A stretch of 35,995 nt of DNA. Source: a virus. The notes under the pieces are model-generated. The model did no database searches. It was not told the DNA's origin and worked only from the letters and a program-made list of their open reading frames with translations. The translations under genes and the position numbers were made by a program. Location of the stretch: the IMG/VR virus record IMGVR_UViG_3300050821_004539, positions 1 through 35,995 of that record; one strand, given 5' to 3'. Positions 2,275 through 33,942 of the stretch are shown in pieces; position 1 is the first letter of the stretch, and the number at the start of each line of letters is the position of its first letter.

Positions 2275-2729
2275 AGCGCATTCTCTCTATCGCGGCTGCC
2301 GTAGGGCTGGTTCTAGGCTGCTGTGGGTTAGCCGCTCTGCCAGCCCGCGCGCAATACTTCATGGAAGTGGCTCCCGGAAGCGTGGAAAATGCAATCAATC
2401 CCACGATCCTGCTGCGGGATCGCCAAGTATCGGCGCTCAATACGGCGGTGACCCTCACTTACGACATGCGCGGGATTGTCAATGCACTGGCGATTGTCTC
2501 GGTGTGCTCGGCGGGGACGGCGGCGCTGACGGTGAGCGGCAGCTCGGACAACATCAACTTCATCGCCATAGACACGATTACCGCGGCGGCGACGCAGGTG
2601 AAAAACTACAACAGCAGCACGGTTGGGGCGACGACGGCGGTATCGCCGCTGGCGTTTCGCTGGGTCAGGATTTTGGTTGCCACTTGTGGCGTAGGCAATA
2701 CGTCAACGCTCACAGTGGCCGGCAAGTAG
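2271..2729 (+). CDS. Secreted or periplasmic protein with cleavable signal peptide
   Basis: 152 residues from ATG 2271, chosen because it yields a classical signal peptide: basic MKR, a hydrophobic core (ILSIAAAVGLVLGCCGLAAL) and a PARA-Q cleavage site near residue 27. The mature part is small, Thr/Ser/Val/Ala-rich and beta-like, with SGSSDNINFIAIDTITAAA and two cysteines. A Sec signal is odd for a virion protein made in the cytoplasm, so the product may alter the host envelope. No family is recognised. Confidence 0.75.
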   Translation: MKRILSIAAAVGLVLGCCGLAALPARAQYFMEVAPGSVENAINPTILLRDRQVSALNTAVTLTYDMRGIVNALAIVSVCSAGTAALTVSGSSDNINFIAIDTITAAATQVKNYNSSTVGATTAVSPLAFRWVRILVATCGVGNTSTLTVAGK

Positions 2730-2747
2730 CAGTGGGCGTTGCGTCGT

Positions 2748-2837
2748 TTGCCGGGGTTCTGCCTCAAGCAGACACCCTCCCCCGGCAATAGGGCAGCAGG
2801 GCTGCCACAGCCCCCGCTCACCACGGCCCTGCTGCCC
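2748..2837 (+). other. Paired stem-loops in intergenic region
   Basis: The 266-base gap 2730-2995 holds no convincing gene. The first structure has perfect 9-bp arms (2748-2756 and 2780-2788) enclosing a nested 5-bp hairpin at 2758-2772 (TCTGC / GCAGA). The second has perfect 12-bp arms (2791-2802 GGGCAGCAGGGC and 2826-2837) around a 23-base loop. Neither is followed by a T-run, so they look like structured RNA or a processing/attenuation element rather than terminators. Confidence 0.55.
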
Positions 2838-2885
2838 ACTCCTTCTCGCGCCGTAGTCCAATCCTCCCTGTGACACGGCCGATCT

Positions 2886-2946
2886 GGCGGCAACTCCGAC
2901 TGCCGCCCCACTTGGCCGGCTGCGATTGATAATAGCCGGCTCTTTT
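2886..2946 (+). terminator. Candidate intrinsic terminator preceded by extra hairpin
   Basis: Arms GCCGGCT (2915-2921) and AGCCGGC (2934-2940) form a perfect 7-bp stem followed at once by TCTTTT (2941-2946). Just upstream, GGCGGCA (2886-2892) and TGCCGCC (2901-2907) form a second perfect stem with an 8-base loop. The T-run is short and interrupted, so termination may be partial. The position, before a gene with its own strong ribosome-binding site at 2996, fits an operon boundary. Confidence 0.55.
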
Positions 2947-2995
2947 CTCCAAGGCGCCATGAGGCGCACAACGCAGCGCAACATAGGAGCTCAAC

Positions 2996-3484
2996 ATGGC
3001 GCGCTATGCAGTGTCCAACCAGAATGCGGCTTCTCCGATCAGCTTGACCACGACCTACAAGACGGAGGTGGTGGCGACCGCCGCCACCGGCGCGACCACG
3101 CTGCGCCGCGGCTGGATTGATGAGGTCGTTGTCGGCGCTGACGGTGTTGCCAACGCCACCGATTGCCAGATCGTCTGGGACTGGTCGGTGCAGACCGCGG
3201 CCGGAACGGTCGTTGCCGTCGTTCCGCAGCCCACACCGGACGGCTCCGATGCCGCGGCGCTGCTGGTCTATGGTGTCAATGCCACCGCCGAGGGGACAAT
3301 CACGGCAAATTCGTCTCTTCTGGCCTTCGCCACCAACCAGCGGCAGTCGCAGCGCATCCAGTACGCCGATTTCCGGCTGACGCCGCTGATCATCCCCGCG
3401 GTGAACCTCAAGGGCATTGCCGCGCGGGCCAAGTCCACGACGTATGCGGCGACCGCAGTGGTACAGGAATACGTGGTTGAATGA
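2996..3484 (+). CDS. Virion-type structural hypothetical protein
   Basis: 162 residues, with AGGAG ahead of ATG 2996. The composition is typical of small phage structural proteins: Ala/Thr/Val-rich with beta-like segments (GWIDEVVVGADGVANATDC, TAAGTVVAVVPQPTPDG) and few charged residues. The end AATAVVQEYVVE is also beta-like. There is no signal peptide. It starts just after the hairpin region and overlaps the next gene (ATGA), so it probably heads a new translational unit. Exact role unknown; head decoration or fibre-associated protein is possible. Confidence 0.7.
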   Translation: MARYAVSNQNAASPISLTTTYKTEVVATAATGATTLRRGWIDEVVVGADGVANATDCQIVWDWSVQTAAGTVVAVVPQPTPDGSDAAALLVYGVNATAEGTITANSSLLAFATNQRQSQRIQYADFRLTPLIIPAVNLKGIAARAKSTTYAATAVVQEYVVE

Positions 3485-31353: not shown

Positions 31354-31677
31354 TTACGCAACTGGAATCGGCTGCTCGATATGGAACGTGTGGACGTTCA
31401 CTGATCGCAGCGCGTCTTGGCACTCCTTGCATATCCACGTGTGCCCGATCAGATAAGCCTCGCCTGCGAGGTCCATGCTTTCGCGGGCCAGCTTCGCGAC
31501 GTTTGCCTCCGCGTGCGTTGATCCGCACAGCTCGTAGCCGGTGCCTGTTTGGCAGCCAGCGGTAACGCGCGGGCACACGGTCAGGCCATCGACCGCGCAT
31601 TCATTTATCGCCTCATATCGGCGACCGTCCGCACGGATGATCACGCATCGCGTCTGCTTCTTGAGGCATGGTCTCAC
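31354..31677 (-). CDS. CMP/dCMP-deaminase-like protein
   Basis: 107 residues; its ATG overlaps the methyltransferase stop. STHAEANVAKLA provides the HAE zinc/catalytic motif and HTWICKECQDALRSVNV supplies the CxxC-type zinc ligands, the two signatures of the cytidine-deaminase fold. The N-terminal strand KQTRCVIIRADGRRYEAINE fits. The spacing between the motifs is normal for a small dCMP deaminase-type protein. It may act on deoxycytidylate; coupling to a C5-cytosine methyltransferase is notable. Substrate unproven. Confidence 0.6.
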   Translation of the reverse strand: MRPCLKKQTRCVIIRADGRRYEAINECAVDGLTVCPRVTAGCQTGTGYELCGSTHAEANVAKLARESMDLAGEAYLIGHTWICKECQDALRSVNVHTFHIEQPIPVA

Positions 31678-32501
31678 GGGTTAGCACTCATGATTGCTCG
31701 GCCGATGATTTCCGCGATCTGCGGAACGATGGCGTTGCCGAGTGCTCTAAGGCGGTCCACCCGAGCGGAAACCCCATGAGCCACTCGACCCACGTCGGGT
31801 TCAGTGAGCCATTGAGTTGACCCTTGCGTTGATTGTTTGAGCCGCCCTTCCAACAATTCGCGTCTGGTGTCGGCCACATCTTCACGGCCGAGTGCAGCGT
31901 ATCTGGCTGTCCCCGATGTTTGCCGCTGTCGTATTCCGCTCGCGGCGTGGGCCACAATCCAGACCCTATCCCGTCGGTGAGGGGCACCAACGGCGGAAGC
32001 TGGTATGCAATGCCATTCCGCATCGTACCCGAGCGCGGCCAGGTCTCCGAGAACTCGGCCAAGTCCCCGTCCAAGCAAAGCTGCGACGTTCTCCACGATG
32101 ACGTAGCGGGGTCGTACTTCGCCAACAATTCGGGCGTACTCGCTCCATAGTCCCGAGCGAGAGCCTTCAATGCCCGCGCCCTTTCCTGCGACGCTGATGT
32201 CCTGGCAGGGGAAGCCGCCGCAGATGACATTAACACTCGTTCGCGTAGTTGATGCGTCCCACCTATCCCCGCTTTGACTCGCGTCATCGCCGCCATGTTC
32301 GCGTCCGATGCCCTCGGAGTTGGAAATTGTCTTTGCGGTAAGCTCTCGCACATCTCCGAAAACAGGAACGTCTGGCCAGTGCTTTCGGAGCACGGCTTGG
32401 CAATAGGGCTCGATCTCACAGAAGGCGACGGTTCGCATTCCGGCTCGCTCAAGACCGAGTGAGAAGCCGCCAATCCCTGAGAAGAGGTCCAAAACATTCA
32501 T
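31674..32501 (-). CDS. DNA C5-cytosine methyltransferase
   Basis: 275 residues from ATG 32501-32499 (AGGG four bases before it); an upstream TTG at 32504 is less likely. It transfers methyl from SAM to cytosine C5. Motif I is LDLFSGIGGFSLGLERAG (4-21), motif IV GGFPCQDIS with catalytic Cys99, motif VI ENVAAL (137-142), motif VIII RRDRVWIVA (176-184) and motif X RLRALGNAIVPQ (250-261). All are present, so it should be active; the target sequence cannot be read because the recognition region between VIII and X is short. A complete alternative frame of 269 codons lies inside this gene. Confidence 0.92.
   Translation of the reverse strand: MNVLDLFSGIGGFSLGLERAGMRTVAFCEIEPYCQAVLRKHWPDVPVFGDVRELTAKTISNSEGIGREHGGDDASQSGDRWDASTTRTSVNVICGGFPCQDISVAGKGAGIEGSRSGLWSEYARIVGEVRPRYVIVENVAALLGRGLGRVLGDLAALGYDAEWHCIPASAVGAPHRRDRVWIVAHAASGIRQRQTSGTARYAALGREDVADTRRELLEGRLKQSTQGSTQWLTEPDVGRVAHGVSARVDRLRALGNAIVPQIAEIIGRAIMSANP
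31688..32497 (-). CDS. Nested alternative-frame protein inside the cytosine methyltransferase gene
   Basis: 269 residues in another frame on the same strand, ATG at 32497, ending 14 bases before the methyltransferase stop. Recognisable strings are TSSWRTSQLCLDGDLAEFSE, TWPRSGTMRNGIAYQLPPLV, two WPTP units (LWPTPRAEYDSG, MWPTPDANCWKGG) and LNPTWVEWLMGFPLGWTALE with an SRKSS end. I recall similar strings from proteins annotated beside phage methyltransferases, but could not check this. The frame may be a real second product or an open shadow of a conserved GC-rich gene; both are possible. Confidence 0.4.
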   Translation of the reverse strand: MFWTSSQGLAASHSVLSEPECEPSPSVRSSPIAKPCSESTGQTFLFSEMCESLPQRQFPTPRASDANMAAMTRVKAGIGGTHQLRERVLMSSAAASPARTSASQERARALKALARDYGASTPELLAKYDPATSSWRTSQLCLDGDLAEFSETWPRSGTMRNGIAYQLPPLVPLTDGIGSGLWPTPRAEYDSGKHRGQPDTLHSAVKMWPTPDANCWKGGSNNQRKGQLNGSLNPTWVEWLMGFPLGWTALEHSATPSFRRSRKSSAEQS

Positions 32502-33247: not shown

Positions 33248-33745
33248 CTATTTGACTAGAATGCGAAGTACAGGTTCAGCATTGGAAAGCACGTAGCCAG
33301 GTACGGTTTCCTTTGCGAGTAGGAGCGTCTTGATTTTCATCCTGTCAGGTTCTTTTTTGATCCTCACACATTCGTCCGGCAATCCATCGACTCCTTCGCC
33401 TATGACTTTTTGCTGTCCGGCGCTGATGCTAATGGTCGCCTCGGCGAGCACGACTTTGCGTAAATCGGCGATATTCATAATTTTCTGGATGAGTGAACGC
33501 AATGCGTATTCGCTCCGCTCTAACCTTGCTTTTCTTTCCTTCAATTCCTCAATTTTTTTAGCTGCTCCGGCAGCTAATGCGTCCACATAATCAATCTTGT
33601 TAAGGATGCCGGACAGAAATTCAAAGGTGCTGGTCTGACCTTCGATCATGTCCTCGCGCAACACTTCATCTTCGAGAAGTTCAGGGTAGACCAGCAGTAG
33701 CGTCGTGATTTCGTCCTGCACGGCTTTCGCATCGAGGTTTTTCAT
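33248..33745 (-). CDS. Siphovirus Gp157-like protein
   Basis: 165 residues from ATG 33745, preceded by GGAG six bases upstream; a longer reading from 33772 is less likely. ELLEDEVLREDMIEGQTSTF is followed by a long helix (AAGAAKKIEELKERKARLER, SEYALRSLIQKIM), then a beta C-terminal part (LAEATISISAGQQKVIGEG, PGYVLSNAEPVLRILVK). This order is typical of Gp157 family proteins, found in early operons and linked in some streptococcal phages to resistance or recombination. Role here unknown. Confidence 0.7.
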   Translation of the reverse strand: MKNLDAKAVQDEITTLLLVYPELLEDEVLREDMIEGQTSTFEFLSGILNKIDYVDALAAGAAKKIEELKERKARLERSEYALRSLIQKIMNIADLRKVVLAEATISISAGQQKVIGEGVDGLPDECVRIKKEPDRMKIKTLLLAKETVPGYVLSNAEPVLRILVK

Positions 33746-33942
33746 ACCGCACTCCGTCCGATATCGTGACACGCGGCCTTGATGGTCAGCATGCCCACGT
33801 CCGAATCACAGTCGATCCAGCCGCAAGCGCAGTAGGCGAATGTGAACCATCCGGCTTTCTGGAACCGCACCCGATGGTCATGTACGACCGGCTCAAGCTG
33901 CGGCTCGCTACCGGCGCCGGGGGATTTGTGCGGGGCGGTCAT
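33742..33942 (-). CDS. Small Cys-containing early protein
   Basis: 66 residues from ATG 33942 (overlaps the stop of the secreted peptide gene); its TGA overlaps the next ATG. VHDHRVRFQKAGWFTFAYCA then CGWIDCDSDVGML gives a three-Cys patch (C-x-C-x4-C), and a further Cys/His pair follows (ACHDIG). It may bind a metal. A longer reading starting at 33981 is not used. Function unknown. Confidence 0.6.
   Translation of the reverse strand: MTAPHKSPGAGSEPQLEPVVHDHRVRFQKAGWFTFAYCACGWIDCDSDVGMLTIKAACHDIGRSAV

Follow-up and report, generated by a model that had tools for sequence, protein, structure and literature searches.

The window analysed here, a stretch of 35,995 nucleotides of viral DNA, contains a cytosine methyltransferase (MTase) gene in which a second, same-strand frame, offset by +1, opens at an ATG 4 bases past that of the outer frame (32497 vs. 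32501). Is this nested frame a gene or a chance by-product of the sequence around it, and what would its product do? The outer frame is referred to here as alpha and the nested frame as beta; their coordinates and parts are collected in Table 1.

Two frames at the methyltransferase locus

Motifs I, IV (PCQ), VI (ENV), VIII and X were found in alpha, which identify it as a C5-cytosine MTase (PF00145), and its match to the PF00145 profile reaches profile position 195 of 324 only. A preliminary description of this DNA had credited the MTase frame with all core motifs. Motif IX, however, is absent from alpha; it is present in the nested frame, near the C-terminal end of beta (LNPTWVEWLMGFPLGW), where it had gone unrecognised. 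When the beta motif IX profile was run on alpha proteins, nothing significant was detected. The motif-like strings that had been quoted for the nested frame were all present, and the string LNPTWVEWLMGFPLGWTALE overlaps the DNA immediately before, and then into, alpha motif X. The genes examined near the MTase were excisionase-like, Gam-like or of no known kind; the one at 33251-33772 (-) encodes a protein matching Mu Gam-like end protection (phrog_253, 3e-17).

Table 1. Features of the alpha and beta frames at the MTase locus.
Feature	Position (strand)	Sequence or composition	Evidence or remark
Alpha, C5-cytosine MTase	31674..32501 (-)	275 aa; motifs I-VIII and X, in-frame motif IX absent	PF00145, E=1.1e-44
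Beta, most likely extent	31688..32230 (-)	180 aa, +1 frame, ATG 32230	Onset of conservation; putative start
Beta, maximal (ORF of the preliminary description)	31688..32497 (-)	269 codons, +1 frame	ORF listing; synonymous shuffles
Extra PTP-like unit	32231..32332 (-)	RQFPTPRASDANMAAM..., +1 frame	Within alpha insertion between motifs I and IV
Alpha motif IV with catalytic Cys	32199..32222 (-)	CGGFPCQD	Motif positions
Beta N-terminal signature	31988..32095 (-)	WRTSQLCLDGDLAEFSETWPRSGTMRNGIAYQLPPL	Overlaps alpha motifs VI-VIII; z 18.8-57.4, alpha codons 131-180
Beta WPTP unit 1	31937..31957 (-)	LWPTPRA	Alpha reads VAHA at the same DNA; z 35
Beta WPTP unit 2	31859..31879 (-)	MWPTPDA	Alpha reads VADT at the same DNA; z 27-28
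Beta motif IX	31754..31804 (-)	LNPTWVEWLMGFPLGWT	z 62-81; HHalign to actinophage MTase C-terminal part, E 1.6e-11
Alpha motif X	31719..31754 (-)	RLRALGNAIVPQ	Alpha conserved here, beta conservation faded

Selection on both reading frames

The role of chance was assessed with a null model that shuffled synonymous codons while the encoded MTase and its codon usage stayed fixed. An open +1 frame of 269 codons arose in 0.06% of these shuffles (median longest run, 109; 95th percentile, 180), and the coordinates confirm the frame as it was first reported. Relatives were gathered from viral contigs in two ways, with the MTase query alone and, separately, with the nested protein. All 119 distinct loci collected had a nested match, always at the same +1 offset, and each of the 80 loci retrieved by alpha alone also yielded a +1 beta match. 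The preliminary description had proposed locating such matches relative to the nearest MTase; they lay inside one in about 250 of 259 distinct loci, with an offset of +1 throughout.

Stops in the +1 frame were counted across an alignment of 106 viral-contig MTase genes. They were as frequent as expected from shuffles over alpha codons 1-90 (241 seen vs. 244 expected), nearly eliminated over codons 95-190 (2 seen vs. 245 expected) and absent over codons 196-240. Conservation of the +1 translation, scored by BLOSUM as a z value against shuffles in 90 sequences with a median pairwise identity of 57%, was far beyond that of the shuffles from codon ~91 to codon ~255 and near the null at both ends. 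The z values were 26-57 over alpha codons 121-160, well upstream of motif VIII, and peaked at 81 at LMGFPLGWTA. Third-base identity at fourfold sites was 0.31 in alpha codons 1-60, 0.55 in codons 96-190, 0.94 in codons 226-250 and 0.36 in codons 251-275. Conservation was higher in beta than in alpha in codons 201-220 and 231-250, and over codons 191-230, which lie in the stretch from motif VIII to motif X, the alpha protein was unconserved while the beta units were kept. The +1 stops are missing, and the synonymous sites constrained, precisely across the nested stretch, so selection acts on the protein products of both frames, and the nested frame is a real conserved gene rather than a product of chance. 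The preliminary description had left dual coding and an annotation artefact as alternatives, and the data support dual coding. Its two refuting outcomes, normal synonymous variation with frequent +1 stops and matches found only away from any MTase, were both looked for, and the opposite was seen in each case.

Start and extent of the nested gene

The 269-codon extent originally given for the nested gene holds for the open frame, but conservation is seen only from near residue 90 (ATG 32230). Since conservation among the relatives begins there, coding is shown only beyond the first third of the ORF, and stop depletion together with the conservation profile places the beta start near ATG 32230, not at 32497. 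ATG 32230 is probably the active start, with a predicted product of 180 aa. A start codon was within reach of the beta start in 71 of 90 loci compared to 38 expected from shuffles, and a start codon plus a Shine-Dalgarno (SD)-like site was detected in 22 of the 90 compared to 5.7 expected; no clear Shine-Dalgarno was detected at ATG 32230 of this locus. An extra PTP-like unit similar to the one in Table 1 also was detected in the +1 frame of L002, L003, L004, L041, L084, and L008. Most loci with such a unit have a +1 frame that is open from beside the alpha start; their beta may extend further, and the first third of the 269-codon ORF may be used in these few loci, this one included.

Probable identity of the nested product

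The preliminary description had mentioned similar strings in proteins annotated next to phage MTases, and these proved real (phrog_1008). The nested protein of this locus matched phrog_1008 with an E-value of about 2e-32 to 6.6e-31, and 85 of 85 aligned betas matched it as well. This family is annotated as 'DNA methyltransferase'; in nested loci it corresponds to the beta half, which is without the catalytic motifs. Pfam and NCBIfam searches with beta gave no match. When beta was compared with nine conventional MTases by HHalign, its best match fell on motif IX, at a P of 0.076 that is not significant, and its best PDB profile match was a plant DRM (E 1.1), over a stretch that we take to be DRM motif IX. 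Actinophage MTases have LLPTP units followed by motif IX (RLNPAFVEWMMGLPAG in L402) and motif X (ALGNGVVPQQA) in a single frame, and HHalign aligned the nested betas with the C-terminal part of these proteins (PTP units and motif IX) at a probability of 97% (E 1.6e-11). The phages Andrew and Samy have two overlapping genes, with an alpha that ends after motif VIII and a +1 beta that comprises PTP units, motif IX and motif X. The beta C-termini of the split actinophage pairs match positions 424-499 of phrog_116, and the alpha studied here matches positions 208-377, further upstream.

An AF2 model of beta alone had a pLDDT of 62.6, and a fold search with this poor model matched no fold. The model of a one-frame relative (L395; pTM 0.75) overlaid M.HhaI end to end (Z 23.0, rmsd 4.6 over 252 residues), and Foldseek and VIA supported its overall C5-MTase fold. 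Motif IX was modeled with high confidence in L395 and the PTP region with low confidence, so the evidence for a role of the latter in target recognition is indirect.

By sequence comparison, the most fitting reading of the nested product is very probably a beta subunit, one of two polypeptides that make up a C5-cytosine MTase, and we hold this split-enzyme explanation as a whole with high confidence. Alpha would form the large domain, which holds motif X and the catalytic Cys and binds AdoMet. Beta, with its putative internal start at ATG 32230, would supply motif IX and very likely target recognition, and so the small domain, whose place in one-chain enzymes is between motifs VIII and X. Both polypeptides would bind each other and join into one active enzyme, with which the phage may methylate its own DNA against host restriction. 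The target recognition domain (TRD) of one-chain C5-MTases is located between motifs VIII and X. Alpha is noise across the WPTP region while the beta units are kept, which suggests that beta brings the TRD and probably supplies target recognition through its WPTP units. The number of PTP units varies among loci, mostly from one to three.

Three other explanations were weighed. It is improbable that the second frame is translated solely as the end of a fused alpha-beta product that a programmed +1 frameshift after motif VIII would generate. The actinophage relatives point in this direction, with motifs I-VIII, PTP units, motif IX and motif X within one frame and a +1 frame that stops at a recurring TAG site ahead of the first LLPTP; however, beta is constrained well upstream of motif VIII, a region that no such fusion would include, motif X is kept in alpha's own frame, and the beta start shows an excess of start codons and SD-like sites. 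Slightly less probable still is an unrelated beta, in which case dual coding would be real and the product, for example a regulator or an anti-restriction protein, would overlap the MTase by accident. The N-terminal part of beta (FSETWPRSG-MRNG) has no known counterpart, and the Pfam and fold searches gave nothing that would contradict an unrelated origin, but motif IX is missing from alpha exactly where beta has it, HHalign relates beta to the MTase C-terminal part, the split actinophage betas hold motifs IX and X, and beta is essentially always accompanied by alpha. Scarcely credible, and ruled out by the synonymous shuffles for the alignment used, is an untranslated nested frame whose resemblances merely mirror MTase protein conservation and GC-rich codon use: overlap with conserved motifs does give faint similarity, as in the 15-bit +1-frame match of the conventional MTase L336 to the beta profile, but shuffles with the same protein and codon usage never gave the observed stop depletion or conservation, alpha is less conserved than beta in two stretches (see above), the +1 effect is absent upstream of codon ~91, and the +1 frame of conventional MTases is at the null.

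Complementarity and distribution

The PF00145 genes of ten cellular genomes were surveyed for complementarity between the two frames. Genes that matched PF00145 nearly end to end, with motif IX in frame, lacked a beta, and their +1 frame did not depart from the null; genes that matched only to about position 165-213 had a +1 beta in nearly every case; the exception, G008:C3, had a short match and no beta. No stand-alone beta without an MTase was found among the 259 loci, the exceptions to nesting being truncations, splits or one frameshifted gene (L193). This gene (2685-3423 of a Bryobacterales MAG) has the alpha N-terminus and the beta C-terminus in one frame, which fits a frameshift mutation or a sequencing error.

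Hundreds of phage and prophage loci share the nested layout. Nested pairs (L163-L168, L329-L334) were observed in phages with widely differing hosts: Mycobacterium, Paenibacillus, Vibrio, Synechococcus, Porphyromonas, and Lacticaseibacillus. Matches to beta also were detected on plasmids of Leptospira, Bacteroides, and the archaeon Methanomethylovorans.

Division of modules between frames

The modules are divided between the frames in three ways. In the nested class, which includes this locus, alpha has motifs I-VIII and X and beta has the units and motif IX; in the split class, alpha has motifs I-VIII and beta has the units and motifs IX and X. In the shifted class (L360-L402, 26 actinophage loci), alpha has motifs I-VIII followed by PTP units, motif IX and motif X, and the N-terminal part of beta is kept in the +1 frame. 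The beta N-terminal signature was detected in the +1 frame of all 26 loci compared to 0.7 expected, and there were no +1 stops compared to 19.4 expected. The +1 frame of this class usually ends at a TAG ~3 codons before the first frame-0 LLPTP, in the recurring DNA CTGTAGACCTGCTACC. In L372, the +1-frame TAG is about 77 codons past motif VIII, and in L402 the +1 frame comprises the N-terminal part and three PTP units, with motif IX in alpha instead. The PTP repeat array of the shifted class spans two frames, with the break at a unit boundary.

Because the beta N-terminal part is kept in the +1 frame, it is doubtful that L360-L402 are single-chain enzymes; the evidence from the adjacency of motifs IX and X is unaffected. 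These enzymes may work as two chains or by a -1 frameshift, for which CTGTAGACC (L360-type) is a candidate site. A broader reading, which we hold tentatively and place a little short of evenly balanced, is that beta is the entire small domain, that WPTP units are modular recognition repeats and that the frame boundary has moved repeatedly, leaving motif IX in beta and X in alpha, both in beta, or both in alpha with the PTP array divided at the TAG, the last needing a -1 frameshift or an array shared by two chains. If true, these genes would offer an extensive natural system in which overlapping genes, and DNA recognition that can be recombined, could be studied.

Annotation and significance

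Database records vary in whether they name the outer frame only, the inner frame only or both. Most name alpha only (e.g., Acinetobacter phage ABMM1, Nitzel, and Salmonella phage S9-5). In Stenotrophomonas phage SOVA965 (L163), the 'DNA-cytosine methyltransferase' annotated at 1384-1884 is beta, and the intact overlapping alpha (1161-1904) is unannotated; in Paenibacillus phage Lily, both frames are listed, and the name given to beta is 'g62 internal gene'. For many phage genes called 'DNA methyltransferase', the annotation thus covers just half an enzyme, and an alpha that is cloned simply as annotated, or whose synonymous codons are redesigned, would probably lack activity. It is rare to find long nested genes on one strand with proven selection in both frames; the products at this locus appear to be enzyme halves. 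The hundreds of diverged copies are a strong data set for overlapping-gene evolution.

Comparison with known systems

The small polypeptide of M.EcoHK31I, of about 176 aa, is encoded inside the alpha gene in another frame. M.EcoHK31I is a two-polypeptide C5-MTase whose alpha has motifs I-VIII and X and whose small polypeptide has motif IX (PMC3404938). The large subunit described here also has motifs I-VIII and X and no motif IX, which is in a second overlapping frame, a likeness of layout. The predicted TRD of M.EcoHK31I was assigned to the large subunit (PMC3404938), whereas the evidence here favors the small one, and M.EcoHK31I (YGGCCR) belongs to a restriction-modification system whereas the gene here is in a viral contig. 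The preliminary description had called the gene pair overlooked; annotations are indeed confused, but a nested arrangement whose inner gene carries motif IX was published for M.EcoHK31I, so this kind of system was already known. No paper describing wide conservation of the nested gene, or linking the M.EcoHK31I layout to these phage genes, was found in our search, which covered few subscription journals, and an earlier description is possible. New here are the breadth, the strength of the dual-coding signal, the likely TRD in beta and the relatives with a different division between frames.

M.AquI (CYCGRG) is a C5-MTase split between motifs VIII and IX, with two polypeptides forming one enzyme (PMC3404938). 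Its beta has motifs IX and X, whereas at this locus motif X is in alpha and beta is wholly nested. The M.AquI layout, with an alpha that ends after motif VIII, is found in the relatives L165 and L166, and the split actinophage pairs (e.g., Andrew gp43/gp44) resemble M.AquI. M.HhaI and M.HaeIII are single polypeptides with an in-frame motif IX and no nested gene, and the same fold is expected for alpha plus beta. Actinophage methylases can carry an out-of-frame HNH insertion (the ShiLan domain), a mobile homing endonuclease (PMC11855218). As with the ShiLan domain, a phage methylase gene hides a protein in one of its other frames, but here the hidden frame is the methylase's own missing part.
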